In this document: positions 3,983 to 39,991 of the stretch, piece by piece
Position numbering within the stretch: the first letter of the stretch is position 1
How the letters are laid out: every line of letters starts with the position of its first letter
Assembly (NCBI GenBank): GCA_018971485.1
Contig: JAGXAQ010000006.1
Location: 1-64,000 of the forward strand
From: Pseudomonadota bacterium
Lineage (GTDB): Bacteria > Pseudomonadota > Gammaproteobacteria > Burkholderiales > REEB80
DNA length: 64,000 nt
Reading direction: 5' to 3'
Translations under genes and position numbers: made by a program
Notes under the pieces: generated by a model
Told to the model about the DNA's origin: nothing
Databases searched by the model: none
What the model saw: the letters and a program-made list of their open reading frames with translations, nothing else

Positions 3983-5842
3983 ATGATCAAAAAACAATTC
4001 ATTCTACGGCAACTAAGCATGTCGAAAAATCCATCAAAGTCAAGACAAGGAACAATCCATACACTTCAAATTTTTCTGCCCTATCTGACTCAATTTAAAG
4101 GTCGGGTTTTCCTGGCAGTTTTATTCCTGATCGCTGCTAAAGTTGCTAACGTTTGGGTCCCTTTAGTCCTCAAACACATTGTTGACTCTCTAACCCCCAC
4201 CTACTCCCTGTTAAGCGTGCCGACTATGCTGATAATTGCATATGGACTGTTGCGGCTTTCATCGACATTATTTGGCGAATTAAGAGATGTGGTTTTTGCA
4301 AAAGTTGCGCAGCGTTCCATCCGACAAGTCGCATTAAAAGTCTTCAGGCATCTGCATACCCTATCCTTACGGTTCCATCTAGAAAGACAAACTGGTGGTG
4401 TATCACGTGATATTGAACGGGGTACTCGGGGAATTGATACTATCTTACGTTTTATGCTATTCAATATCTTGCCCACCCTGGTTGAGCTAGGGCTTGTTTC
4501 TGGTATTTTATTTCTACGGTACAACATTAAATTCTTAACCATTATCCTTGCAACTATTCTGCTCTATATTTGCTTTACCCTATCATTTACTGAATGGCGC
4601 CTTCGTTACAGACGCATTATGAATGAAGCTGAAACCAGAGCAAATCAAAAAAGCATTGATAGCCTTCTTAACTATGAAACTGTTAAATATTTCAATAACG
4701 AACTGTATGAATCTCAAAGATACGATGAAAATTTGCAACAACTGGAAAAAACCTCAATCAAAAGCTCAATAACCCTGTCTGCACTTAATGCGGGCCAAGC
4801 CATCATAATCGGCACTGGTGTTACTTGGCTAATGTATTTTGCTGCAAAAGGGGTCGCACACCACACAATGACAGTAGGTGATCTAGTAATGGTGAATGCC
4901 TTCATGATTCAACTCGCACAACCTTTAAATTTTTTGGGCTATGTATATCGGGAACTGCGCCATTCCATCCAGGATATGGAAAGAATGTTCAACTTGCTTA
5001 ATATTGAGCCGGATATCCAAGATAAACCTCATGCACCCGATATCCGGATCACTGCGGGTAATGTCAGGTTTGAAAAAGTCAATTTTTATTACGACTCAAA
5101 CAGGCAAATCCTCTTTGATGTCAATTTTGATATTCCGGCAGGCTCAAAAGTCGCAGCAGTTGGCCATAGCGGAGCAGGAAAATCAACTCTATCGCGCCTA
5201 CTATTTCGTTTTTATGATGTCTCTACCGGCCGCATCACTATTGACAATCAGGATATCAGAGATGTATCGCAAAAAAGCCTAAGACGGCACATCGGGGTCG
5301 TGCCTCAAGATACAGTGCTATTCAATGATTCTATTTATTACAACATTCTTTACGGCTCACCTATGGCCACGCATGATCAGGTCATTTCTGCTGCAAAAAC
5401 TGCGCATATTCACGAATTCATAGAATCCTTACCCAATGGGTACAATACACAGGTGGGAGAACGCGGTCTTAAATTATCCGGGGGCGAAAAACAACGGGTA
5501 GCTATTGCGAGAACAGTTTTAAAAAACCCGGCCATACTTATTTTCGATGAGGCTACATCTGCGTTGGATTCCGCCTCTGAAAAAGCCATTCAATCTGAAC
5601 TGAGCCGGATTTCAACCGGGCGGACCACCCTTATTATTGCTCACCGGCTTTCTACCATTATTGATGCTGATTTAATTCTAGTGTTTGATAAAGGGCGCAT
5701 TATCGAACAAGGGACACACCTTCAATTACTTAATAAAGAAGGGGAATACGCCAAGATGTGGGCATTACAGCAAACACATGAAAAAGAATGGATTTCTCAA
5801 GGCGCATCATACCTAGCCCAATCCGAAAAGCAACCTGCCTAA
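3983..5842 (+). CDS. ABC exporter half-transporter, Atm1/ABCB type
   Basis: A 619-residue half-transporter with an N-terminal six-helix membrane domain (about residues 35-330) and a C-terminal ATPase domain. Walker A is GHSGAGKST at 394-402, the ABC signature LSGGEKQR is at 498-505, Walker B is LIFDEAT, and the H-loop is IAHRLST. The membrane domain segments NYETVKYFNNE and LNFLGYVYRELRHSIQDMERMF are characteristic of the Atm1/HMT1 group, which exports glutathione-linked or sulfur compounds and heavy-metal conjugates. It would act as a homodimer in the inner membrane. The ATG at 3983 has AAGGTAG upstream, and a second ATG at 4019 has no such site. Confidence 0.92.
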   Translation: MIKKQFILRQLSMSKNPSKSRQGTIHTLQIFLPYLTQFKGRVFLAVLFLIAAKVANVWVPLVLKHIVDSLTPTYSLLSVPTMLIIAYGLLRLSSTLFGELRDVVFAKVAQRSIRQVALKVFRHLHTLSLRFHLERQTGGVSRDIERGTRGIDTILRFMLFNILPTLVELGLVSGILFLRYNIKFLTIILATILLYICFTLSFTEWRLRYRRIMNEAETRANQKSIDSLLNYETVKYFNNELYESQRYDENLQQLEKTSIKSSITLSALNAGQAIIIGTGVTWLMYFAAKGVAHHTMTVGDLVMVNAFMIQLAQPLNFLGYVYRELRHSIQDMERMFNLLNIEPDIQDKPHAPDIRITAGNVRFEKVNFYYDSNRQILFDVNFDIPAGSKVAAVGHSGAGKSTLSRLLFRFYDVSTGRITIDNQDIRDVSQKSLRRHIGVVPQDTVLFNDSIYYNILYGSPMATHDQVISAAKTAHIHEFIESLPNGYNTQVGERGLKLSGGEKQRVAIARTVLKNPAILIFDEATSALDSASEKAIQSELSRISTGRTTLIIAHRLSTIIDADLILVFDKGRIIEQGTHLQLLNKEGEYAKMWALQQTHEKEWISQGASYLAQSEKQPA

Positions 5843-27031: not shown

Positions 27032-29341
27032 ATGACGAAAAAAAAATCCAAAACAAAACATACGGCTTTATCTACCACCCTACCTGACATTTTAACACGC
27101 GGCATTCAAGCACATAATGCAGGAGAACTTAATGAGGCTATCAAGGATTATGAACAAATTCTCAAAATCAATCCGAAACACATCGATGCCCTACACCTGT
27201 ACGGCCTTGCCTGCTACCAGCAGGGTGAATTTAAAAAAGCACTTGAGCTAGTAAAACGCTCCATTACAATTAATGACGCAATAGCTAATATCTACAACAC
27301 CTATGCGAGCATTCTTTTGGCCTTAAATAACCAGGATGAGGCTATAGTTGCTTTAAAACGGGCAGTACATCTGGATCCTTATCATTATTTAGCATGGAAC
27401 AATCTTGGCAATACCCAAAGGGACAAAGGAGAATACGCTGCAGCAAAGATAGCCTATGACGCCGCGTTAAAACTTAATCCATATGATCCTGAAACACTAA
27501 CCTTATCCTGCTTTATCCGGCAACATCTATGTGATTGGGAGGAACTAGACAGCCTGAGGCATCGTTTTATGACGCTTGTCCCTCAACCTGAGCACCAGCG
27601 TATTGCGCCCTTTACTGTGCTAAGTCTTGTAGCTGACCCCATCATACAAAAAAAATGGGCCAGTCATTTTGCTGCAGAAACAGCCTCTGGCCTATCCCGG
27701 CAAAAGACAACAAATGATCATCATCAACAATCAGTTAGGCAAAAAATTCATATAGGATATGTTTCGTCAGATTTCTTTAACCATGCAACCAGCTTTTTAC
27801 TGGCTGAAGTTATTGAACTACATGATCGTGAACAATTTAAGATTGTTGGTTATTCAATTGGGCCATCCATTCAAGATGAAATGCACCAAAGAATCAAATC
27901 TGCATTTGATGAATTCAGCGATTTATCTGGAAGTTCAGTCCAGAATATAGCAACAAAAATCAAAAATGATCATATTGACATCCTAATTGACCTTAAAGGC
28001 TACACTACAGGTGCGCGTCCGGGGATTTTCTGCTTGAAACCTGCACCCATTCAAATATCATGGCTTGGTTATCCTGGCACACTCGGCATGACCAGCATGG
28101 ATTACATCATCAGCGATTCTATCATTACGCCACCAGAATATGAGATTCACTTCACTGAAAAAATTATCCGATTACCTGATACCTATCAGTGTAATGACAG
28201 AAAACGAATTATCGCTAAAATACCCCAACGAAGCGAAGCAAACCTACCCGAAGGGGCATTCGTCTTCTGTGCATTTAACAACGCCTACAAAATTACCCCG
28301 GATATATTTTCAATCTGGATGCGGTTACTTCATAAAACACCTAATTCAGTACTATGGCTTCTAGATACTCATCAAGAAACAAAAAACAATCTACAAAAAA
28401 CAGCCGAAACTTCTGGAATCAACCCAAGCAGGCTAGTTTTTGCACAAAAACTCCCACAACCTGAGCATCTGGCACGAATAAAACTAGCCAATCTGTTTTT
28501 AGATACCTATCCGGTTAATGCCCATACCACTGCAAGCGATGCGCTATGGGCTGGGCTACCTCTTGTAACACTGTGCGGGACTTCCTTTGTCTCACGGGTA
28601 GCGACAAGCCTGCTCCATGCTGCCGGGTTGCCACAATTATCTACCAGGACACTGGAAGAATATGAACGCCTATGCGAAAACCTTGTCCATAATCCTGAGA
28701 CACTTCATAATATTCGAACATATCTTCACAAACAACGTTTACAACTTAACTTATTCAATACCCCGAAATTTACCCAGAACCTCGAATATGCCTACACTGA
28801 AGCCTGGAAAAGATATCTAAATGGAATAAAACCAGAATCTTTTAATATCAAAACAAAGAAGGTTTTACATATTTACTCTGAAGGAAATGCCAAACCTTAT
28901 GCCTACGCTATACCATTCAATGGATTCAATCACCAGATTCCCAGATTAAGCGCCCTCTATCCCCATTCATTTTTTGACCATGTTCTTATAACCCATATAT
29001 TAGAAAAAATTGATAATATCACCCAGTTTATTGCTGCATGCTGGGAAGTCCTGGCCCCATCCGGTAACTTAGACCTGGTCGTTGCACATGATCTTTCACA
29101 CTACGCATGGAGTCATCCGCTTAATCAACGGACATTCAATCATACCTCCCTGCAATACATTATCAAAACCTTACCAGATTATCTTCAAAACCAAATTGCA
29201 GCCACTTCGTTCCAACTCCATCTGAGTTTAGATGGGGAAAAATTAAAAAATACTGGATGCCCTCTAGATACCATCCTGCAAACTGCTCGAGCAATCGACA
29301 AAATCACATTTTCAATTACAAAAAATAATATAATTAATTAA
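27032..29341 (+). CDS. TPR protein with O-GlcNAc-transferase-type glycosyltransferase domain and extra C-terminal tail
   Basis: A 769-residue protein. The TPR repeats (about 25-180) include the unit ALHLYGLACYQQGEFKKAL and one with YLAWNNLGNTQRDKGEYAAAK. The GT41 catalytic region (about 230-590) has GYVSSDFFNHATSFLL, IDLKGYTTGARPGIFCLKPAPIQISWLGYPGT and, near 493-537, the UDP-binding run ending SRVATSLLHAAGLPQL. The last 165 residues have no counterpart in simple GT41 proteins and look like the C-terminal half of a class I methyltransferase (FDHVLITHILEKID, LAPSGNLDLVVAHD). Bacterial relatives glycosylate flagellins or adhesins. It lies next to the amyloid cluster and could modify its subunits, but this is only inferred from position. 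Confidence 0.85.
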   Translation: MTKKKSKTKHTALSTTLPDILTRGIQAHNAGELNEAIKDYEQILKINPKHIDALHLYGLACYQQGEFKKALELVKRSITINDAIANIYNTYASILLALNNQDEAIVALKRAVHLDPYHYLAWNNLGNTQRDKGEYAAAKIAYDAALKLNPYDPETLTLSCFIRQHLCDWEELDSLRHRFMTLVPQPEHQRIAPFTVLSLVADPIIQKKWASHFAAETASGLSRQKTTNDHHQQSVRQKIHIGYVSSDFFNHATSFLLAEVIELHDREQFKIVGYSIGPSIQDEMHQRIKSAFDEFSDLSGSSVQNIATKIKNDHIDILIDLKGYTTGARPGIFCLKPAPIQISWLGYPGTLGMTSMDYIISDSIITPPEYEIHFTEKIIRLPDTYQCNDRKRIIAKIPQRSEANLPEGAFVFCAFNNAYKITPDIFSIWMRLLHKTPNSVLWLLDTHQETKNNLQKTAETSGINPSRLVFAQKLPQPEHLARIKLANLFLDTYPVNAHTTASDALWAGLPLVTLCGTSFVSRVATSLLHAAGLPQLSTRTLEEYERLCENLVHNPETLHNIRTYLHKQRLQLNLFNTPKFTQNLEYAYTEAWKRYLNGIKPESFNIKTKKVLHIYSEGNAKPYAYAIPFNGFNHQIPRLSALYPHSFFDHVLITHILEKIDNITQFIAACWEVLAPSGNLDLVVAHDLSHYAWSHPLNQRTFNHTSLQYIIKTLPDYLQNQIAATSFQLHLSLDGEKLKNTGCPLDTILQTARAIDKITFSITKNNIIN

Positions 29342-29415
29342 TATATTAATAACTAATTTTAAATAAAAAGATTAATTTAGTAAAATAATTCAACGATACC
29401 ATGCATTTCTTCATC

Positions 29416-29444
29416 AAAAGATTAATTTTTAAAATTAATCTTTT
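29416..29444 (+). terminator. Long AT-rich hairpin terminator after the OGT-like gene
   Basis: AAAAGATTAATTTT and AAAATTAATCTTTT are exact complements (14 bp) with one T between them, about 75 bases after the stop. The 3' arm ends in TTTT and then GTTTT follows. As RNA it is weak because it is all A/U-rich, but its exact symmetry also allows a bidirectional terminator or protein site. Confidence 0.55.
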
Positions 29445-29594
29445 GTTTTACCTATTGATTTTTTATTTAAAAAGCCAGATTATAAAAAAGCCCATATAAA
29501 CTTTAGAACATGAATTGAATTTATTTAACTTCGAACCTGCTTCTTGAAAAACATAACAATTAATTTATCTTAACCATAGTACTTATCAAGTTTC

Positions 29595-29610
29595 GGTTTC
29601 ATGCTGAACC
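29595..29610. promoter_or_regulatory. Imperfect palindrome upstream of the sigma-54 activator gene
   Basis: GGTTTCATGCTGAACC is a near-palindrome about 80 bases before the activator start. It shares GTTTCAT-n-CT-GAA with the palindrome at 31195-31210 in front of the amyloid operon. The two may be binding sites of the same activator, but with only two copies this is speculative. Confidence 0.25.
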
Positions 29611-29691
29611 AGGTTAATAACACAACAACAAATAACATAAATCTTGTGTTATTACACACCAAATAAATCGGCCAAGAAAGAGGTGATTAAG

Positions 29692-31047
29692 ATGAGCCCC
29701 AGAAATCTACTACTCATTCCACTACTTGACACGCCATTAGGCTTTCTCGAAACCCCACCCTTTTATCCTGACTGGAAAGCCTCAATATGTAAAGAACCGG
29801 ATGAGGCTATCATTCATGTTTCAAACGGGCATTTTCTTGTCGGAATTCTAAGTCTTGACCAGGCTCCTGAAAAAATCGAAATAGCTCATCGGCTTATTGA
29901 CCATGCTCCATTAATGGAATGGATAGCACTTATCCCAGCCATGCCTGAGTACTCTGATAAATTCAATTACCTTCTGGTAAATCATTTTAATGATTTCCAT
30001 ACCCTCCCGGCAAACCCTCCGTTATTGGTTCAAACATTAGGCCACGCGTGGGGAAAAGCACAACTCAAAAATGCACACCCCATTCAATCTACCGAGACAA
30101 TGGCAAACCAGGAAATGGTTGGAACCAGTCCAGCAATGCTAACGGTTTTTAAAAATATTAGAAAAATTGCAGGTGTTGATGCGCCTTTATTAATTGATGG
30201 AGAATCCGGAACGGGAAAAGAATTGGCTGCCCTTGCTATTCATGAACGTTCAACCAGAAAAAAAGGGCCTTTTATTGCAGTTAATTGCGGCTCTATCCCA
30301 ACCAATCTTATCCACTCAGAACTATTTGGACATGAAAAAGGGGCTTTTACCGGAGCACATCAGCGAAAAATCGGATATATTGAATCTGCGAGTGATGGCA
30401 CTATTTTTCTCGATGAAATCGGAGATTTACCCCTCGATCAGCAAACCAGCTTGCTCCGTTTTCTTCAGGAAAAAACCATTACTCCAGTTGGATCAAGCAA
30501 ATCCATCACTATTGATGCACGAGTGATTGCCGCAAGCCACGTTAATCTTGAAGATGCCGTAAAAAAAGGAACCTTCAGGGAAGATCTCTATTACAGATTA
30601 AATGTGCTCTATTTAAAAATGCCAGCTCTACGAGAACGTACCGGCGACATTGAGTTATTGAGCAAATATTTTTTTAAACATTTTCAAAACGAAAAACGAG
30701 AGCAAATCACAGGATTCTCCCAACGAGCTATGGCCGTCATGAATGCGTATCCCTGGCCTGGAAATGTTAGGGAACTCATCAACCGGATCCGCCGTTCTCT
30801 AGTCATGTGTGATGCGCGTCTCATTGAAGCAAAAGATCTGGGTTTGGATAGAAGAGGAGGGTTGCGTCACACCCAAAGTTTGGATGATGTGCGAAACAAG
30901 GCAGAAAAGCTGGCAATTACTTCAGCATTAGCCAGAAGTCGTTACAATCTTTCATTGGCAGCCCAGGATCTGCAAATCTCGCGTATTACACTGTACCGGT
31001 TGATTGAGAAACATCAGATAGATAATAACCCAACCCCACAAAATTAA
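29692..31047 (+). CDS. Sigma-54-dependent transcriptional activator, VpsR-like
   Basis: A 451-residue activator. The N-terminal part (about 1-130) contains VGILSLDQAPEKIE, LMEWIALIP and FHTLPANPPLLVQTLGHAWG, the pattern of VpsR-type domains, without a proper phosphoacceptor pocket. The AAA+ domain has Walker A GESGTGKE at 170-177, the sigma-54 contact loop GAFTGA at 217-222, FLDEIGDL (Walker B) and RLNVLYLKMPALRER. A Fis-type helix-turn-helix closes the protein (LSLAAQDLQISRITLYRLIEKH). VpsR in Vibrio responds to c-di-GMP and controls biofilm matrix. The intact GAFTGA and the adjacent sigma-54 promoter make this the likely activator of the amyloid operon. ATG 29692 has AGAGGTG upstream; the TTG at 29644 does not. 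Confidence 0.9.
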   Translation: MSPRNLLLIPLLDTPLGFLETPPFYPDWKASICKEPDEAIIHVSNGHFLVGILSLDQAPEKIEIAHRLIDHAPLMEWIALIPAMPEYSDKFNYLLVNHFNDFHTLPANPPLLVQTLGHAWGKAQLKNAHPIQSTETMANQEMVGTSPAMLTVFKNIRKIAGVDAPLLIDGESGTGKELAALAIHERSTRKKGPFIAVNCGSIPTNLIHSELFGHEKGAFTGAHQRKIGYIESASDGTIFLDEIGDLPLDQQTSLLRFLQEKTITPVGSSKSITIDARVIAASHVNLEDAVKKGTFREDLYYRLNVLYLKMPALRERTGDIELLSKYFFKHFQNEKREQITGFSQRAMAVMNAYPWPGNVRELINRIRRSLVMCDARLIEAKDLGLDRRGGLRHTQSLDDVRNKAEKLAITSALARSRYNLSLAAQDLQISRITLYRLIEKHQIDNNPTPQN

Positions 31048-31194
31048 GTTGGCCCGTTATTCAAACCAGTCTCATCAATTACATTCCATAAATTTTCAGC
31101 CTGTTACAAATAGCAAAAAAACTAAATTAGTTTATTTTAATCAAAATATTAATCCATAGATATTCTTCCAAAACCACTACTTTAGTATTTTTAT

Positions 31195-31210
31195 GTTTCA
31201 TTCTTGAAAC
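31195..31210. promoter_or_regulatory. Palindrome about 160 bases upstream of the sigma-54 promoter
   Basis: GTTTCA and TGAAAC are exact complements around TTCT. The distance of about 160 bases to the -24 element suits an upstream activator site. A related sequence lies before the activator gene. It is a candidate only. The surrounding gap (31048-31408) is very AT-rich, which would help DNA bending. Confidence 0.3.
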
Positions 31211-31367
31211 AACTACCTGCAAACCTTTATGGAGCTTTAGTTCCCAGCCATTTTCATTGGCATGTCTCATCAATTCAACTCTTTTCTACTCACTCCAGAT
31301 TAAATTAATCCCCTATTTTTTTATAAAAAATTACATTTAATTATTATTAATCAATAAGTTATATAAA

Positions 31368-31384
31368 TTGGCACGGCTATTGCT
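31368..31384 (+). promoter_or_regulatory. Sigma-54 (-24/-12) promoter of the amyloid operon
   Basis: TGGCACG at 31369-31375, four spacer bases and TTGCT at 31380-31384 match the sigma-54 consensus TGGCACG-N4-TTGCW exactly. The GG and GC are 12 bases apart as required. Transcription should start near 31394-31395, only about 15 bases before the ATG at 31409, leaving GGAG (31398-31401) as the ribosome-binding site at the very start of the message. Confidence 0.88.
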
Positions 31385-31408
31385 TTTAGTTAGGCCCGGA
31401 GATTAAGG

Positions 31409-31753
31409 ATGCTTAGAATGGCACCTCATAATATAAGAGCGCGACTGCACATGAAACTGAGCCAAGTGACAACACTTCTAGTTCTGACTTGTGCAGTCGC
31501 CATTCCGGCCCAGGCTGCTATTAACAGCCATACAGGCTTAAGTTCAGAACCTATCAGCGATAAGAATCTACAAAAAGTAACTGGTAGAGGTATCAGCATA
31601 GACTTTTCAACTGAACCAGCCCATCCAGTCGTATTACTTTGGGATGAATTAGGCCATACCAATTCAACACATCATTCTATCGAACTTAAGACTGGTAATG
31701 ACAACAGCCAAACTCAGGAACTCATTTTATCGCAACCAGGAGGCTCAAAATGA
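31409..31753 (+). CDS. Small exported protein, first gene of the Fap-type operon (FapA-like)
   Basis: A 114-residue protein whose signal peptide (about 15-36, ending AQA) is preceded by a short basic stretch. The mature part carries SDKNLQKVTGRG near 49-60, which resembles the Gly-Gly-type leaders cut by C39 peptidases; a C39 peptidase gene (fapD) is in this operon. In Pseudomonas FapA is a small periplasmic protein that balances FapB and FapC. Sequence identity to FapA cannot be shown by eye, so the assignment rests on size, export and position. GGAG lies seven bases before the ATG. It overlaps the next gene (ATGA). Confidence 0.55.
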   Translation: MLRMAPHNIRARLHMKLSQVTTLLVLTCAVAIPAQAAINSHTGLSSEPISDKNLQKVTGRGISIDFSTEPAHPVVLLWDELGHTNSTHHSIELKTGNDNSQTQELILSQPGGSK

Positions 31754-32559
31754 GCTGGACAATAAGATATTTATACAGATCTTTTTTCCTGCTGCGCCAA
31801 CTGGGCAACGAGGATACAACCCTAATAACTGCACCGGGCAGAAAAATAAGAACAGATAACATAACGGATTTTAAGCGCACACAGATAAAGTTTAACCTTG
31901 GTTTGTACACACTGTTTCAGAATCCATCGCGCTTCAAACTGGCTATTCATGTTTTACCCAGCCTGGTTTTTATCCCCCTTCTAGCTGGTGCTGTCAGTTA
32001 TCCTGTGCAAGCGGATGAAGTATTTCCATATTTACCCTTCAGCACCAACAGTGTGCTCATCAACAATGATCTGAACAATGTTCATGGTGCCATTACAATT
32101 AACGAAGCTGCAGGGTATGGCAACCAGCAGGCTAATTTAGGTGCAATTAGTCTCGGCAACACTGCACTATCCCAAACGAGTTGGCAGCCTTCAAATAATC
32201 TGGCGTCCAGTATTGAACAGCAAGAATCGAATATATGGATTGGTCAATCCTTTCAGAACAGCAGTGGCTGGATTGCCATTAACCAGGCAGCTGGAGCATC
32301 AAATCAGCAGGGAAATGCCATTAACCTGAGTAGTGGAGCAACGGCAATTGCTATAAGCGACACTTTACTCGCCATGAATTCACCACATGAAACAGAATCG
32401 GTTGTGAATGATGGCTCAAATGCATCGAAAATTACCATAGGCATGGATCATGCCGCTTTCGAAAACACGCATGGAGTCGTTCAAATCAACCAGGCAGGAG
32501 GAACGGGCAACAGCTCGTTTAACCATTTCAGTCTTACCATTTCGGATGAGGCGAAATGA
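31750..32559 (+). CDS. fapB: Amyloid repeat protein, FapB-like
   Basis: A 269-residue protein with three imperfect repeats at about 107-134, 167-194 and 237-263. They have the form HGAITINEAAGYGNQQAN, SGWIAINQAAGASNQQGN and HGVVQINQAGGTGN, the strand-turn-strand pattern of Fap amyloid subunits. FapB is the minor subunit that nucleates FapC fibres. The protein has an unusual N-terminus: about 60 residues precede the hydrophobic export signal (63-88, ending QADE). No closer start with a ribosome-binding site exists, and ATG 31750 overlaps the previous stop (ATGA), suggesting coupled translation. No C-terminal CxxC is present. Confidence 0.8.
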   Translation: MSWTIRYLYRSFFLLRQLGNEDTTLITAPGRKIRTDNITDFKRTQIKFNLGLYTLFQNPSRFKLAIHVLPSLVFIPLLAGAVSYPVQADEVFPYLPFSTNSVLINNDLNNVHGAITINEAAGYGNQQANLGAISLGNTALSQTSWQPSNNLASSIEQQESNIWIGQSFQNSSGWIAINQAAGASNQQGNAINLSSGATAIAISDTLLAMNSPHETESVVNDGSNASKITIGMDHAAFENTHGVVQINQAGGTGNSSFNHFSLTISDEAK

Positions 32560-32587
32560 CATGATTAACCACCAATCGGAGGAACTG

Positions 32588-33412
32588 ATGAAAACGATCT
32601 ATAAATTATCCCCGCTGGCGATTGCCATTGTCGCCCTGGGAATTTCATTGCCAGCTTTAGCTCATGGAGAAGACGATGGGGGTGGCGCACACATTACAAA
32701 CCATACCCACACATCTTACGATATGGACGTAGATGGCCACATTAAGGTGAAAGGCTTTGTAGAAGTAAAAAGTGCAGCCAATGCCACCGTGAATAATGAG
32801 CAGGAAAATGGGGGCAACACTGTATCCAATGACGACTTCAGCAAAAACAAGGCAACTGCTGGTTCTGGAAACCTTGAAGATACAAATGGCAACATTGGCG
32901 TCAATATCAGCAATGGTGCAGGCAACCAGCAAAATAATTCTACCGCCATTTCTGCTGCTTCTGTAAATGTCACGTCTGGTGATGCAGATTCTGGTGGATC
33001 AGCCGATAGCCAGGTATTTTCAAGTCAGGAGAATGGTGAAAATGTGGTTTATAACCACCCTGGAACCAGAAACACTGCCACACTAGGTTCGGACAATCTT
33101 GAAGATGCCAGTGGCAATATTGGAGTCAATATCGCAAATGGCGCTGGTAACCAACAGGCAAATACCCTTGCTGTTTCGAGTGTGCAGAACTCAGTTCTTG
33201 CAAATGCTTCTGTCAGCTCAAACCAACATAACGGCGGAAATTTTGTTGATAACGATAGCTTCTGGTGTACCAAAGTTGTTAACAAGGCGACCCTGGGTAG
33301 CAACAACCTTGAAGGTGCCAGTGGCAATATTGGCGTAAATATAGCCAATGGCGTTGGAAACCAACAAATGAATGGTCTTTCAATTGCTTCAGTAACAACA
33401 ACATCGCCTTAA
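32588..33412 (+). CDS. fapC: Major amyloid subunit, FapC-like
   Basis: A 274-residue exported protein. The signal peptide ends at LPALA (about residue 25). Three strongly conserved repeats follow at about 88-124, 163-199 and 233-269, each built as NKATLGSxNLExASGNIGV then NIANGAGNQQxN. They are separated by Gly/Asn/Gln-rich linkers of 38 and 33 residues that contain ENGGN-type motifs. This matches the FapC repeat. It lacks the C-terminal CxxC known in Pseudomonas and has a lone Cys227 in the second linker. GGAGGAA directly before ATG 32588 decides the start; the frame extends further upstream without support. High expression is likely. Confidence 0.88.
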   Translation: MKTIYKLSPLAIAIVALGISLPALAHGEDDGGGAHITNHTHTSYDMDVDGHIKVKGFVEVKSAANATVNNEQENGGNTVSNDDFSKNKATAGSGNLEDTNGNIGVNISNGAGNQQNNSTAISAASVNVTSGDADSGGSADSQVFSSQENGENVVYNHPGTRNTATLGSDNLEDASGNIGVNIANGAGNQQANTLAVSSVQNSVLANASVSSNQHNGGNFVDNDSFWCTKVVNKATLGSNNLEGASGNIGVNIANGVGNQQMNGLSIASVTTTSP

Positions 33413-33427
33413 TTAAGGCAGTACCAG

Positions 33428-33459
33428 ATGCTGCTCGGTGTCCATAAACCGAGCAGCAT
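33428..33459 (+). terminator. Strong hairpin between fapC and fapD
   Basis: ATGCTGCTCGGT and ACCGAGCAGCAT pair over 12 bp around an eight-base loop, then TTATTAAATTT follows. It sits 16 bases after fapC and before fapD. Partial termination or mRNA protection here would give much more subunit than export machinery. Confidence 0.82.
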
Positions 33460-33483
33460 TTATTAAATTTCAGGAGTTACGCT

Positions 33484-34176
33484 ATGCGCCTGACAATAAT
33501 GGCTATGGTATTGACAGCGTTACTGCTGCAGAGCAAGACACAGGCCAACACAATGGAATTTGGCAATATTTTGCATAATGGTGGTCTTATTAACAAATCA
33601 GTAACCAGCATGCAAGGCATGCACTTTACCAATATGGTCAGACAGCATACCGACTTCAGTTGTGGTGCAGCTGCCATGGCAACCATACTTAAATATGGCT
33701 ATGGATTAAATGTAACCGAGGAAGAAATCATTCGCGGTATGCTTCTCGTAAGTAACGTAAAGATAGTTTCCCAACGCGGTTTTTCTATGCTGGACATGAA
33801 ACACTACGCTGAAACAATTGATTTAAAAGGAAAGGGGTACGAAATCAACTACCCCATGCTACTCAGGTTGAAAATACCTGTCATTGTATTGCTCGACATG
33901 CGGGGCTATAAACATTTCGTCGTATTATCAAAAGCAACACCCAATTCAGTCTATCTTGCTGATCCTGCCCTCGGGCATCGCATTATCTCCAAAGACGAAT
34001 TCAACAAAGAATGGAATCATATTATTTTTGCGGTTGTTGGGCCAGGTTTTGAACACAGTTCCACATTGCTTCATCCTCCCCAACCCCTATCCGCTCGAAA
34101 AAGCTATGCCCAGATACGTTCACTAACAGACACACAACTTTTGGAGTTTGGTTTTGCCTACAAGGATTACTTTTAA
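33484..34176 (+). CDS. fapD: C39-family cysteine peptidase, FapD-like
   Basis: A 230-residue exported peptidase. After a signal peptide (about 1-21) the C39 core has the catalytic Cys60 (DFSCGAAAMATI), His144 (GYKHFVVL) and Asp160 (YLADPALG). C39 peptidases usually cleave bacteriocin leaders after Gly-Gly. In the Fap system FapD is needed for amyloid export and may process other Fap proteins. Leader-like sequences occur in the FapA- and FapE-like proteins of this operon. The ATG has CAGGAG at a good distance. Confidence 0.9.
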   Translation: MRLTIMAMVLTALLLQSKTQANTMEFGNILHNGGLINKSVTSMQGMHFTNMVRQHTDFSCGAAAMATILKYGYGLNVTEEEIIRGMLLVSNVKIVSQRGFSMLDMKHYAETIDLKGKGYEINYPMLLRLKIPVIVLLDMRGYKHFVVLSKATPNSVYLADPALGHRIISKDEFNKEWNHIIFAVVGPGFEHSSTLLHPPQPLSARKSYAQIRSLTDTQLLEFGFAYKDYF

Positions 34177-34200
34177 ATCCCCTGGCACTAGGAGATGATC

Positions 34201-34941
34201 ATGAAAGCCCTACGCACCAAACAATGCCTGCTGTATTCGATTACCATTCTCAGCATGGCCCTGATACCAGGCTATGCTCATGCAGAACTGACGCCAATCA
34301 GTGGACTTAAAATCGCTGAATTACCAGATTCAGTGCTAAGTAATATTCGAGGTAAGTATGTCGCTGATAACTCAATCATGTATTTTGGAGTATCAATGCT
34401 AACAAACTGGCAAAACGGCAATCTTAATATTAGCGCTGGAATCAAATTGTCTGTAAACGCACAACTGCAGCCAACACTCACAATCATTACTGCCGACAAC
34501 AAAGGGCTAGCCCAAACAGTCGGGAGCAACCAAGTATCAATCACAGGTACCGGCCTAGGGCAAATTGCTGGGGCAGGCCAGTTAATCCAAATCGGGGGCA
34601 ATGGCAACAGTGTCACCAATAACATCAATATGGATCTCAACAATAACGTTACTAATAATACAGCATTAAATTCAATACAGCCTGGCACCCACATAATTCA
34701 GTTAACAGGGGCCACTGCTACTGTATCAGTACTTAATGATAACCTGATGCTCGGAGTAAACGTACCTAATCAAGGAACCGTAATTCAACAAATATCTCCT
34801 GGAAGTGTTACCCAGTCAGCTCAGATTGGGGGGGATTTCAATCAAATCGGAAACAGCATAAACATTGAAGCATCCATGCAACCTCAAACCATAACTACAA
34901 TAGGGCAGCAGGTTTTAGGCAGCTTACGAGCGCTGAACTAA
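34201..34941 (+). CDS. fapE: FapE-like secreted protein
   Basis: A 246-residue exported protein. After the signal peptide (ending AHA) comes LPDSVLSNIRGKYVADNSIMYFGVSMLTNWQ, the beginning characteristic of FapE-type proteins (L.D..L...RG.YV...I..FGV.M...WQ). The rest is rich in Asn, Gln, Gly and Thr with repeats such as GNQ/GNGNS and IQQISPG, consistent with a beta-rich minor fibre component. The LSNIRGK element resembles a C39 cleavage leader. ATG 34201 is preferred over 34195 because GGAG ends directly before the latter and is six bases from the former. Confidence 0.75.
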   Translation: MKALRTKQCLLYSITILSMALIPGYAHAELTPISGLKIAELPDSVLSNIRGKYVADNSIMYFGVSMLTNWQNGNLNISAGIKLSVNAQLQPTLTIITADNKGLAQTVGSNQVSITGTGLGQIAGAGQLIQIGGNGNSVTNNINMDLNNNVTNNTALNSIQPGTHIIQLTGATATVSVLNDNLMLGVNVPNQGTVIQQISPGSVTQSAQIGGDFNQIGNSINIEASMQPQTITTIGQQVLGSLRALN

Positions 34942-34961
34942 ACATATTTCAGGATATACCC

Positions 34962-35888
34962 ATGACCATTAAAAATCAGAAGAATATTTTTAATACTTGT
35001 TGTCAAAGTATCGTCATCATTAATGAGCAAGGTTATATTGAGCAAGCAAACCACGCATTTTTTACCACAACAGGACTAACCGCACGACAAATTGCCGGGA
35101 AATCCTTCTATAACTTATTCTCTAGTTCACGAAATTTAAATTATTATTACTATATTTGGCGGGAATTAAGAAGAAACCAATTCTGGCAAGGCGAAATCTG
35201 GCTCAAAAAAGCGGATAACAACCGGTTCCCATCTTTAGTTAATATCAGTCTTTATGAACAAGGAAACCTATCGACTTGCTATATTGCCTTCATTTCAGAC
35301 TTAACCGAACAAAAACAAAAACAAAAAAGACTCGAAACATTGGCGTATTACGACCTTTTAACAGGCTTGCCAAACCGTATCTTGTTTAACGATCGGCTCT
35401 CAGTTGCTATTGAACTTGCAAAGCGCAATCAACACCAGCTAGCCATTCTATTCATTGATTTAGATAATTTTAAACCTATTAATGATCAGCTAGGACATTT
35501 AGCCGGAGACAAACTCTTAAAATGTTTAGCACACAGGATGCAAAAGAATATAAGGGAATCAGATACCATAGCCAGGTTTGGGGGCGATGAATTCATCATC
35601 ATCCTTAACAACACACAAGGCGAAATTTATGTAAAAGAAGTAGCCGAAAAACTTAAATCCATCATCTGTGAACCCATACATTTGGGTCAAAACATCATTA
35701 ACATTAATGTCAGTATTGGCATATCACTATATCCGGAACATGATATTAGTGGTAAAGGCCTCCAGCATAAGGCTGATTTAGCTATGTACCGTGCAAAAAG
35801 GGCCCATACCGTTGGAATCGATTTTTTTGATCCAAGGCAATTTAACCCAGCCACAGTTAACCATGCTTCATTGGCAAAAGCCCTTTGA
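34962..35888 (+). CDS. PAS-GGDEF diguanylate cyclase inside the Fap operon
   Basis: A 308-residue cytoplasmic protein. An N-terminal PAS domain (about 10-120, with VIINEQGYIEQANHAFFTTTGLT) leads to a GGDEF domain. The active-site loop is GGDEF at 207-211, and the product-inhibition site RxxD (R198-D201) lies exactly five residues before it, so the enzyme should be active and feedback-regulated. It makes c-di-GMP from two GTP. It begins 20 bases after fapE and precedes fapF, so it is embedded in the amyloid operon. The PAS ligand is not identifiable. Confidence 0.93.
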   Translation: MTIKNQKNIFNTCCQSIVIINEQGYIEQANHAFFTTTGLTARQIAGKSFYNLFSSSRNLNYYYYIWRELRRNQFWQGEIWLKKADNNRFPSLVNISLYEQGNLSTCYIAFISDLTEQKQKQKRLETLAYYDLLTGLPNRILFNDRLSVAIELAKRNQHQLAILFIDLDNFKPINDQLGHLAGDKLLKCLAHRMQKNIRESDTIARFGGDEFIIILNNTQGEIYVKEVAEKLKSIICEPIHLGQNIININVSIGISLYPEHDISGKGLQHKADLAMYRAKRAHTVGIDFFDPRQFNPATVNHASLAKAL

Positions 35889-35898
35889 CTCAAAGGGC
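35880..35898 (+). terminator. Hairpin overlapping the diguanylate cyclase stop codon
   Basis: GCCCTTTG and CAAAGGGC are perfect complements around ACT, followed by CCTATTTATT. The stop codon lies in the loop region. It may lower expression of fapF relative to upstream genes or act as a processing site. Confidence 0.6.
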
Positions 35899-35925
35899 CC
35901 TATTTATTATGGAAAAAATAATAAT

Positions 35926-36066
35926 ATGAATAAGTTAAAATTAAATTGCAAATGCGGTAATATTAGAATTCATACAATCACCGCTATGCAGCTGGTCACC
36001 CGTACTTTTGAAGATGCTTCGAAAAATAACCATAAATTCATTTCGACAAGGGGGATCAAACCATGA
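35926..36066 (+). CDS. Small ORF (46 residues) coupled to fapF
   Basis: A short frame begins at ATG 35926 and ends with a TGA that overlaps the fapF start (ATGA at 36063-36066). Such exact overlap suggests coupled translation and supports a real frame. The predicted peptide has CKCG near the N-terminus and ends in basic residues. No signal peptide and no family recognised. The ribosome-binding site is weak, and chance cannot be excluded. Confidence 0.4.
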   Translation: MNKLKLNCKCGNIRIHTITAMQLVTRTFEDASKNNHKFISTRGIKP

Positions 36067-37337
36067 AACTCAAAATAATCACACAATGTATTCTGGCATT
36101 ACCTTTTACGCTCTTCTCTTTGCCCACAATTGCTGATGAATCAATCACAGCCTCATCGCTCAATAAAGAAATTCAAAATCTGCAAGAACAATACAATAAA
36201 GAGCGACGTAATATGCAACTTCTTGAGATCCAGATCCAACAGGTTCAACAAAAAGCCCAAACCCTATATCCTGTTGCTTCACCCAAAAAAAATAAAACCC
36301 AAGCAAACAAAACACCTAATTCAGAACAAACCCAGACAGAACAGCAAACCAAAAATGAAAATGTTGTCAAAGAAGCACCAAAGTCACGCTCAGCAGAAAC
36401 AATCTATCAAGAGCAACACTCTGATTTTAATAAAAAATTCTCTTTTGAGGCAGGATTAACCTATTCTCGTTTCGACAGAAGGCAAATTGACTTGTCAGGC
36501 TTTCTTGCCCTTGATGCTATTTTCTTAGGACACATCGCCGTTGATAGCATCAAATCTGATATTCTGACCTTGGACCTGACCGGGCGCTACACATTTACGC
36601 CCCGTTCTCAAATTAGTGTTGATGCCCCATTTTTATGGCGCTCTACTGAATATTTATCCGGTGGGTCAGGAAATAGCGGTACTACCCTACAAAGTTATCG
36701 GAATACCTCTCCCTGGAAAATGGGAGATCTTAGCATTGGTTATTACTACCAGCTAAAACCTGAAACAGTGAAATGGCCTGATATAGTCTGGAATGCACAG
36801 GTCAAGTTTCCAACAGGTACTGATCCATATGGAATCAAAATTATCAATGTGCCAGGAACAGGTGGCAACCTTCAGGTACCAGCTAGCCTTCCGACAGGAA
36901 ATGGATTATATGCAATATCAACAGGATTCTCATTTATCAAGACTGTAGATCCCGCCATCTTATTTGCTGATATCAATTATTACCATAACTTTTCTAGACA
37001 TTTTCAGGATATCAGTACTGCACCAGGGGTAGTGGCTCCTGGCGATATCGAACTTGGCGATTCCATAGAAGCCGATATAGGAACAGCTTTTGCCTTAAAT
37101 GACAAAATGAGTTTAAGTCTTTCTTACCAAGAACAAGTTACTAAATCTGCAAAAACAAGACTAGACGGTCAATCCTGGCAAGGAATAACTGGCTCAAGTG
37201 CTAATGCCGCTGTAATGAACATTGGTGCTACATACGCCACAACCCCGAATAACGCCTTTGTATTCAATCTTGGTGCTGGCTTAACTCCCGACGCGCCAAA
37301 TGTATTAGTGGGTCTAAAAGTCGTACATCAATATTGA
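36063..37337 (+). CDS. fapF: Amyloid outer-membrane exporter, FapF-like
   Basis: A 424-residue outer-membrane protein. The signal peptide (ending TIA) is followed by a coiled-coil helix (about 30-70, LNKEIQNLQEQYNKERRNMQLLEIQIQQVQQKA in heptad style) and a polar Lys/Gln/Thr-rich linker. From about residue 130 to the end, alternating strands of a beta-barrel run, ending in VGLKVVHQY with a terminal aromatic residue. This is the FapF layout: trimeric coiled coil and 12-stranded pore through which amyloid subunits are secreted. It is the last gene of the operon. Confidence 0.88.
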   Translation: MKLKIITQCILALPFTLFSLPTIADESITASSLNKEIQNLQEQYNKERRNMQLLEIQIQQVQQKAQTLYPVASPKKNKTQANKTPNSEQTQTEQQTKNENVVKEAPKSRSAETIYQEQHSDFNKKFSFEAGLTYSRFDRRQIDLSGFLALDAIFLGHIAVDSIKSDILTLDLTGRYTFTPRSQISVDAPFLWRSTEYLSGGSGNSGTTLQSYRNTSPWKMGDLSIGYYYQLKPETVKWPDIVWNAQVKFPTGTDPYGIKIINVPGTGGNLQVPASLPTGNGLYAISTGFSFIKTVDPAILFADINYYHNFSRHFQDISTAPGVVAPGDIELGDSIEADIGTAFALNDKMSLSLSYQEQVTKSAKTRLDGQSWQGITGSSANAAVMNIGATYATTPNNAFVFNLGAGLTPDAPNVLVGLKVVHQY

Positions 37338-37342
37338 TATCT

Positions 37343-37810
37343 CTAAAATGCGCCTTGGGCACCACCCACGGCGCATAAAACTGTTGTCAACAGCGTTAAC
37401 CAAATTAGAATATGTGCAGTTCGTAATCGGTGCCAGGCCAATACAGGGTTATCTTCTATCATCTTGACTATCCGCTGATGTATTAAAGGTTCTCCAACAA
37501 AGGTCAGAATAGTAAAAACCAACCAGATCAATATCATCACATGAACCCACCAAAAGCGCATATGAACATACCAGCTCCACCCCCCAAGTAGAGATATCAT
37601 CCAAACACCTGAGCCACCTGAAAGCAATAAAACAATTCGGGTTTGCCAAACAAGGCGTCTTTCAATTAACGAAAACGCTTTCATGCGCTGTTCTATTGAT
37701 TTAAAAGACTTTTCAGGTAAAAGTAAAATACTACTGACAAAAGATACCCCTACAATCCATAACAAAACTAAAACAACATGGATAATTTTTATCCAATCAA
37801 ATAGATTCAT
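37343..37810 (-). CDS. Four-helix membrane protein, HemJ/CopD-like
   Basis: A 155-residue inner-membrane protein with four predicted helices. WIKIIHVVLVLLWIVGVSF at the start carries a His, and WVHVMILIW plus LRTAHILIWLTLL carry further His residues inside helices. This layout is shared by HemJ (protoporphyrinogen oxidase, heme-binding) and CopD-like families. The exact family is not certain. The frame extends to 37927, but ATG 37810 with GGGAGAAAGG just upstream is clearly the start. It lies 22 bases after the small upstream gene in one unit. Confidence 0.65.
   Translation of the reverse strand: MNLFDWIKIIHVVLVLLWIVGVSFVSSILLLPEKSFKSIEQRMKAFSLIERRLVWQTRIVLLLSGGSGVWMISLLGGWSWYVHMRFWWVHVMILIWLVFTILTFVGEPLIHQRIVKMIEDNPVLAWHRLRTAHILIWLTLLTTVLCAVGGAQGAF
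37348..37376. terminator. Bidirectional hairpin at the convergent end of fapF and the membrane gene
   Basis: ATGCGCC and GGCGCAT pair with an inner GGG/CCC pair. On the minus strand it is followed by TTTTAGAG. It overlaps the last codons of the minus-strand gene and could end both transcripts. Confidence 0.5.
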
Positions 37811-37832
37811 CCTTTCTCCCATAACACCTGTT

Positions 37833-38030
37833 TTATTTTTCTTTCTGTTTCTGTGGTATTTGAGACCGTAATAAATAAATACCCTGTTCTGGTTGGTATC
37901 CTCGGGCAGGCATTCCTGACAGATCATAACCGCCTGTCAAGGCAATATCTCTTTGAGGGTTACGATTCTTCAAATACTCCCGCTTCTGAGACTCAGTCAG
38001 GCCTTCAACCATTTCACCCTCTATAGACAT
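37833..38030 (-). CDS. Small hydrophilic hypothetical protein (65 residues)
   Basis: The ATG is preceded by a perfect AGGAGG seven bases away, so it should be well translated. The protein has no signal or membrane span; LTESQKREYLKNRNPQRD suggests a helix. No family is recognised. It is the first gene of a two-gene unit with the membrane protein. Role unknown. Confidence 0.65.
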   Translation of the reverse strand: MSIEGEMVEGLTESQKREYLKNRNPQRDIALTGGYDLSGMPARGYQPEQGIYLLRSQIPQKQKEK

Positions 38031-38055
38031 CCATTTTCCTCCTGTTCCCTAGTGG

Positions 38056-38106
38056 AAGTAATCCCGCCTAATTCCAAAGTTATGGTAAAAATGCTAGGGA
38101 TTACTT
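38056..38106. repeat. 10-bp inverted repeat upstream of the small gene
   Basis: AAGTAATCCC and GGGATTACTT are exact complements 31 bases apart between recD and the small gene, followed on the plus strand by TT. It may be the recD-side terminator or a binding site in the promoter of the small gene. The rest of this 200-base gap is empty. Confidence 0.45.
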
Positions 38107-38233
38107 TTAAAGCTGAATGCCATTTCAAAACCAGTACACACAATTTTATCAAACTCATTCAACTTCTTAAACCAGGCTAAAACAAGAAGCCACAAAAGAA
38201 CCAACCGGAATCAGTCCAAAAATATATAGCCTG

Positions 38234-39991
38234 TCACATTGAAAGCAAAGTTGAGCGAATACCACTCTGACGTAATGGTGCATTAGCCAGGATCTCTTCA
38301 AGACAATCCATGCCACATATCAACACCTGTTTACGAGCGCGGCTGATTCCCGTATAGAGCAAAGATCGGGTCATAACCGGAAGCATATTCCTAGGTAACA
38401 AAAGTAGAACCGAGTCAAATTCAGATCCCTGGCATTTATGAATTGTCATGGCCCATGCAGTTTCATGAGGAGGCAATCTCCCTGGAGAGTACTGACGATA
38501 ACTTCCATCAGCCCCTTCAAAACATACACACAACTTGCCATTGGAATCTGCCACCGTAATGCCAATATCGCCATTTGACAAACCTGTAAAAGGATCATTT
38601 TTTAAAATAAGCACAGGTCGACCGATATAAAATCCTTGTCGTGGAACAATCAACCCGTGGCGCATCAAAATATTTTCAATGGCTATATTGGCACCAATAA
38701 CACCCTGATTACCATCCCGAATAGCACAAATCAGCCTAAACTCAGAAAATATCTTAAAAATATTTTCACTCAGGTTGCTCGGGCCATGCATTACTGTTTC
38801 GACATAATTTTTATAGCCATTAAAAATAAAGCTCTCCAAGCCTGACCATCCTGTCCACTCTAACGAACTAATATCTGAATAAACAGGATCATCAAGAAGG
38901 GCTTTAACCTTGCCGAACTCGCCTTCATTTACAGACAGGCATAATTTACCAATTCCACTTTTCTCATTAAACCGGTAGCTTTGGGTCAAGGCAATATGAC
39001 ACTGGGACAAGAAATTAGGTTTAGTTCCAGGATTAACTCGTTCACCAGTCATGGCTTCAATATCAGATACACGCTCAAAATCAAATCCACCTTCATCTAC
39101 GAGTTGAGTCAAGACAGATCCAGCCTCAACCGAGGCAAGTTGATAAGGATCTCCAACAATAATAAGTTTGGATGATAACGGCAACGCCTCCATAATTCGA
39201 TACATAAGGGCAACATCAATCATTGAAGCTTCATCAATAATCAATACATCACATTCCAAGGGTCGGTTTGCATCATGATAAAAGCTCACACCATCAGAAC
39301 GAGCTCCCAATAGGCTATGGATCGTTGAAGCTTTTTCAGGAAATCCAAAAGGCAGTCTTTCAGGATCATGCAAGGATATGATTTGTGCGCGGATAGACTC
39401 CTGCATTCTCTGGGCAGCTTTACCGGTTGGGGCTGCAAGCTTAATATTTAAAGGTATATCTGAAAAGCGCAATAAAAGTAAGATAATTCGGGTCAATGTC
39501 GAAGTTTTGCCTGTACCTGGCCCCCCAGTTACAATACAAAACTGATTTGTAACTGCAAGAGCTGCTGCCACCTTTTGTAAATTCGGCCACGGCTGCCCGG
39601 AAACAAACAGTTCATCCAATAACTGCCTGATGCGAGTCTTGTCTACCTGTGGCTTCTGCAGGATACGTTTAACAAGCAGCTCAGATAAACGTTGTTCATA
39701 GAAATAATAACGGTAAAAATAAAAACGATTTTTCTCATCAAGGATAAACGGTGCAATCTTGCCTGGAGCCGAAACCACGCCACTATAAAATAAGGCACTC
39801 CTCAACTCCTCAAGTGAACATGGCTGCTGATTATCATCTATCTCTTCTAAATCAATGCATGTATGGCCATCCGCCAATTTAACACAAAGTTTTTGAATAG
39901 CTGAAGAAAGAGTCGACGATGGGTTGTTCGATAACACAATAAAATATTTTGCTAGCGCCTGACCTAAAAAATGACCAGCCAACTGGCTCAT
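38234..39991 (-). CDS. recD: Exodeoxyribonuclease V subunit RecD
   Basis: A 585-residue 5'-3' helicase subunit of RecBCD. Walker A is GGPGTGKT at 156-163, Walker B is DVLIIDEASMID, and the C-terminal part has WAMTIHKCQGSEFD and YTGISRARKQV, the UvrD-type motifs of RecD. It overlaps recB (ATGA), so translation is coupled. The length agrees with the family. The three genes stand in the order recC, recB, recD. Confidence 0.94.
   Translation of the reverse strand: MSQLAGHFLGQALAKYFIVLSNNPSSTLSSAIQKLCVKLADGHTCIDLEEIDDNQQPCSLEELRSALFYSGVVSAPGKIAPFILDEKNRFYFYRYYFYEQRLSELLVKRILQKPQVDKTRIRQLLDELFVSGQPWPNLQKVAAALAVTNQFCIVTGGPGTGKTSTLTRIILLLLRFSDIPLNIKLAAPTGKAAQRMQESIRAQIISLHDPERLPFGFPEKASTIHSLLGARSDGVSFYHDANRPLECDVLIIDEASMIDVALMYRIMEALPLSSKLIIVGDPYQLASVEAGSVLTQLVDEGGFDFERVSDIEAMTGERVNPGTKPNFLSQCHIALTQSYRFNEKSGIGKLCLSVNEGEFGKVKALLDDPVYSDISSLEWTGWSGLESFIFNGYKNYVETVMHGPSNLSENIFKIFSEFRLICAIRDGNQGVIGANIAIENILMRHGLIVPRQGFYIGRPVLILKNDPFTGLSNGDIGITVADSNGKLCVCFEGADGSYRQYSPGRLPPHETAWAMTIHKCQGSEFDSVLLLLPRNMLPVMTRSLLYTGISRARKQVLICGMDCLEEILANAPLRQSGIRSTLLSM

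Follow-up and report, generated by a model that had tools for sequence, protein, structure and literature searches.

A Fap-type amyloid operon with an embedded PAS-GGDEF diguanylate cyclase in a Burkholderiales bacterium

What switches on the Fap functional amyloid is largely obscure beyond a few Pseudomonas strains. An operon in a Burkholderiales genome (Pseudomonadota bacterium, REEB80; GCA_018971485.1) has a gene for c-di-GMP synthesis lying among its amyloid genes. The amyloid genes are here physically tied to a second-messenger enzyme, so that a natural link between the two becomes testable in one locus. The DNA analysed, referred to as the window, comprises 64,000 nt of contig JAGXAQ010000006.1. 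The explanation favoured, with a probability of roughly two in three, is a Fap operon driven by sigma-54 and an activator, into which one genus recruited a cytosolic, PAS-sensing cyclase feeding the sessile programme.

Composition of the operon

Homologues of FapB, FapC, FapD, FapE and FapF are encoded on one strand (+, as are all features below) at 31750-37337 in the Pseudomonas order. Profile searches found an NCBIfam match for each of them, confirming at the level of sequence a genuine Fap functional-amyloid operon, with surface amyloid fibres as its predicted product. Matches of the exporter and of both repeat proteins, on which the sequence-only reading had staked its assignment, reached 402 bits for FapF, 136 for FapC and 92 for FapB. 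The FapB-like minor subunit (31750..32559; NF058557, over residues 98-264) and the FapC-like major subunit (32588..33412; NF058558) have three repeats each, those of FapC following the pattern GNIGVN..NG.GNQQ.N. The C39 peptidase FapD (33484..34176; NF058616, 270 bits) retains the Cys, His and Asp catalytic motifs (DFSCG, KHFVVL and LADP) and is followed by FapE (34201..34941; NF058559, 101 bits). The outer-membrane exporter FapF (36063..37337; NF058560) matches the solved FapF structures 5o65, 5o67 and 5o68 with E about 1e-80 (9.8e-81 for 5o65). All five scores lie under the curated NCBIfam equivalog cut-offs, as is expected of divergent members; the FapF cut-off of 700 bits is reached by only 7 sampled FapF matches, all of one family.

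The sequence-only reading had described a complete fapABCDEF set. Genes B to F are present in order, but FapA is not recognisable in the window's operon. The small exported protein at the operon start (31409..31753, or possibly from 31418) was rejected as FapA, since a profile made from six of the sampled FapA proteins does not really match it, and the layout should therefore be read as small protein-B-C-D-E-cyclase-F. Loss of FapA is a frequent variant, and FapA is not required for membership of the Fap systems (PMC3792158). The small protein belongs to a family of its own, with an invariant LWDE motif and about ten members, each an early gene in a sampled fap operon (L124 at 4782-5150, L127, L128, L129, L137, L139, L142 and L154, besides the window). 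No Pfam or NCBIfam entry matches this family above cut-off. In L124 and L129 the LWDE protein adjoins a true FapA. In addition, the LWDE protein (PISDKNLQKVTGRG) and FapE (LPDSVLSNIRGKY) contain stretches that by eye resemble the double-glycine leaders at which C39 peptidases cleave, and both are possible candidate substrates of FapD.

A MAG of the same genus (REEB109, G001; loci L003/L126) has the identical gene order, including the cyclase. Fap proteins of the two species are 64-79% identical, FapF reaching 79%. The start of the window's FapB is uncertain, since homology to the relative's FapB begins near residue 86, leaving about 85 extra residues at the N-terminus. A separate 152-residue frame occupies the corresponding place in the relative, suggesting that two frames may have fused in the window's FapB.

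Between fapC and fapD, folding predicts a stem-loop of 14 pairs (33426..33461), with a counterpart in the relative (L126, 3078-3102). This feature is near-universal after the major amyloid gene: among the fap operons surveyed, a strong stem-loop comes directly after fapC in 51 of 56, after fapB in 7 of 54 and after fapD in 11 of 58, and shuffled sequence gives one in about 8% or less. The post-fapC stems differ in sequence, indicating that the structure is what is kept. Its likely role is that of a partial terminator or a protector of the message end, which would favour the major subunit and probably set subunit stoichiometry. No mention of it was found in the few Fap papers checked for terminators or hairpins.

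Probable sigma-54 control and the neighbouring activator

A sigma-54 -24/-12 promoter, TGGCACGGCTATTGCT (31369..31384), lies 24 bp ahead of the first gene (31409). It has zero mismatches to TGGCACGNNNNTTGCW and is the sole such site in the 64 kb; an equivalent site with one mismatch occurs in the relative (L003, at 781), and rpoN is present in the window's genome. The adjacent gene (29692..31047) encodes a sigma-54 enhancer-binding activator composed of a VpsR-type N-terminal domain (PF20161, 28.6 bits against a cut-off of 23.7), an AAA+ domain with the GAFTGA motif (PF00158, 230 bits) and a Fis-type HTH (PF02954). Its earlier description as VpsR-like stands for the N-terminal domain (E 0.003 to the solved VpsR domain), to which the likeness is confined beyond features common to all such activators, but not for the rest. 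VpsR acts without RpoN (PMC5552954), whereas the GAFTGA motif and the perfect sigma-54 site group the window's protein with the RpoN activators found beside most fap operons and suggest that it acts through RpoN.

The wider pattern was derived from a FapF search across about 1,350 genomes, the draws of which overlap, a Fap operon being counted where a FapF locus had FapC, FapD and FapE recognised (n=58). Of these 58 operons, 52 have a sigma-54-type activator no more than 8 kb away, and a -24/-12 site lies upstream of fapB in 25 of 42, against 0.08 expected per 1300 nt. Sigma-54 activators and their predicted sites thus go with fap operons phylum-wide, a distribution that generalises the RpoN/BrfA control of P. 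fluorescens PF07.

The activator of the window has an orthologue in the relative (79% identical), located at one contig end (C250; L173), the fap operon being found at another (C159; L126). Both ends were read by us as parts of an IS3-type transposase, and the linkage of activator and operon in the relative has therefore probably been broken by an insertion element. Just upstream of the activator, a TPR protein with a GT41 (OGT-like) glycosyltransferase domain is encoded (27032-29341); the relative has it in the equivalent position (L173, 60% identity), and it was not seen near the other fap operons sampled.

The embedded cyclase and its possible role

The enzyme between fapE and fapF (34962..35888) is a cytosolic PAS-GGDEF protein of 308 residues (PF00990, 162 bits; PF13426, 54 bits). 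Both motifs that the sequence-only reading had reported were found intact, RESD at 35553-35564 and GGDEF at 35580-35594, separated by five residues. This arrangement is the pattern of active, product-inhibited cyclases. The relative's cyclase is 65% identical and likewise retains RESD and GGDEF, with the GGDEF part at 77% and the PAS part at 48% identity, indicating that the enzyme part is kept and the sensor is drifting. Synonymous sites of the pair are saturated, and the dN/dS ratio is accordingly not usable.

The cyclase gene begins 20 bp after fapE, and co-transcription with fapB-E is inferred from this spacing. A gap of 174 bp precedes fapF, and a stem-loop, a possible partial terminator by folding, spans the cyclase stop codon (35880..35898); it was not seen at the corresponding place in the relative when the gaps of both species were folded. 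This stem-loop and the 174-bp gap count against the favoured explanation as far as transcription into fapF is concerned. In P. fluorescens PF07, fapA-E depend on RpoN and BrfA, and fapF is not upregulated along with them (PMC9207406), a pattern matching a unit of fapB-E plus cyclase with fapF set apart.

In the recruitment model, sigma-54 RNA polymerase and the neighbouring activator would jointly induce fapB-E and the cyclase gene, so that each burst of amyloid would also make c-di-GMP. The output would depend on the PAS signal and be limited by product inhibition, and the c-di-GMP would feed forward into the general sessile programme, not necessarily back to the fap activator. The Fap proteins, the active and product-inhibition sites of the cyclase, the sigma-54 site, the activator and the gene order in a second species are read directly from the DNA; from them we infer co-transcription, cyclase activity and the c-di-GMP target.

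How unusual is this arrangement? A GGDEF gene lies inside the operon in 2 of the 58 Fap operons, both of one genus (the window and its relative), and three others of the 58 loci have one outside the operon. Within 1.5 kb of a FapF-like gene, it was found at 2 of 104 loci, again these two. The possibility that the arrangement is common was rejected on these counts (none of the 56 other operons, and at that distance none of the other 102 FapF-like loci). The genus is sampled by two genomes. A conserved-peptide scan of genome contigs returned one relative only, and two order-level searches, covering few genomes, contributed nothing further. According to a review, the Pseudomonas fap operon encodes no regulatory proteins (PMC6173800). 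A literature search, with most subscription journals outside its coverage, found no Fap operon with an internal GGDEF gene, in agreement with the sequence-only reading, which knew of none.

The first alternative, put forward in the sequence-only reading, is a closed positive loop, in which the activator binds c-di-GMP from the operon's own cyclase and drives further transcription of the operon. The activator has the N-terminal domain type of VpsR, a c-di-GMP-responsive regulator, and BerB of Burkholderia cenocepacia, a GAFTGA activator that needs RpoN, binds c-di-GMP (PMC5552954), for which reason the loop keeps an outside chance. Nevertheless, the FleQ ligands R144, R185, E330 and R334 (PMC10723142) align with Q140, L181, Y326 and H330 of the window's activator. 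The VpsR motif YxxxxxxRExxxQ is partly kept, with Y and RE retained and Q replaced by R. No c-di-GMP riboswitch or other Rfam element occurs in 28500-38500 at E up to 1. The substitution of all four FleQ contacts checked and the lack of a riboswitch weaken the proposal, which finds no positive support in the sequence, and the intact I-site of the cyclase would cap a runaway loop. A self-reinforcing, product-capped amyloid switch, with an operon-borne source of c-di-GMP sensed by the sigma-54 activator through contacts other than those of FleQ, is doubtful. Fap activators differ at the position of FleQ R185, about a third having Arg and others His, Gln or Leu; some of them might thus bind c-di-GMP, though the window's lacks that contact.

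Alternatively, the tie may be one of co-regulation only, the cyclase being an ordinary environmental sensor that landed here by chance and serves, e.g., motility, with no special bond to amyloid. The genome contains 21 GGDEF matches within 1.93 Mb, which makes a chance landing plausible, and the embedded gene is restricted to one genus. Against this, the cyclase has been kept in both species at the identities given above, with the operon order intact, and a chance passenger is considered improbable. The embedded enzyme is nevertheless one of many: with 21 GGDEF and 2 PilZ matches in the genome, the view of it as the sole cyclase of the cell was rejected, and the 20 others could dominate c-di-GMP levels. 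A recent duplication of some other cyclase in either genome was likewise rejected as its origin, the closest paralogues among the loci compared being about 36-43% identical. Finally, it is very improbable that the GGDEF protein serves chiefly to bind c-di-GMP as a receptor, by way of its intact RESD I-site, given that the whole domain, GGDEF signature included, is intact and matches cyclase structures such as TpbB.

Comparison with known systems

Compared with Pseudomonas fapABCDEF, the window's operon shares the order B, C, D, E, F, the three repeats in FapB and FapC, the C39 peptidase and the FapF exporter; it differs in starting with an LWDE protein, in having no recognisable FapA and in the PAS-GGDEF gene that separates fapE from fapF. 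The related C39 peptidase and exporter families of the Fil system (NCBIfam FilB, FilC) match at 104 and 50 bits, far weaker than the 270 and 402 bits of FapD and FapF.

In P. fluorescens PF07, too, the operon is preceded by a sigma-54 promoter and has an RpoN-dependent activator of the Fis family as its neighbour, but BrfA is encoded downstream in reverse orientation, and the PF07 operon has no cyclase (PMC9207406). Activators placed like BrfA, reversed downstream of the top-scoring sampled fapF genes, share about 45-48% identity with that of the window. BerB shares the GAFTGA motif and works with RpoN in control of the biofilm matrix; it differs in having no N-terminal sensory domain and in its demonstrated binding of c-di-GMP (PMC5552954). 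With VpsR of Vibrio cholerae, the window's activator has the N-terminal domain in common, whereas VpsR is RpoN-independent and the GAFTGA motif and sigma-54 site of the window point to RpoN.
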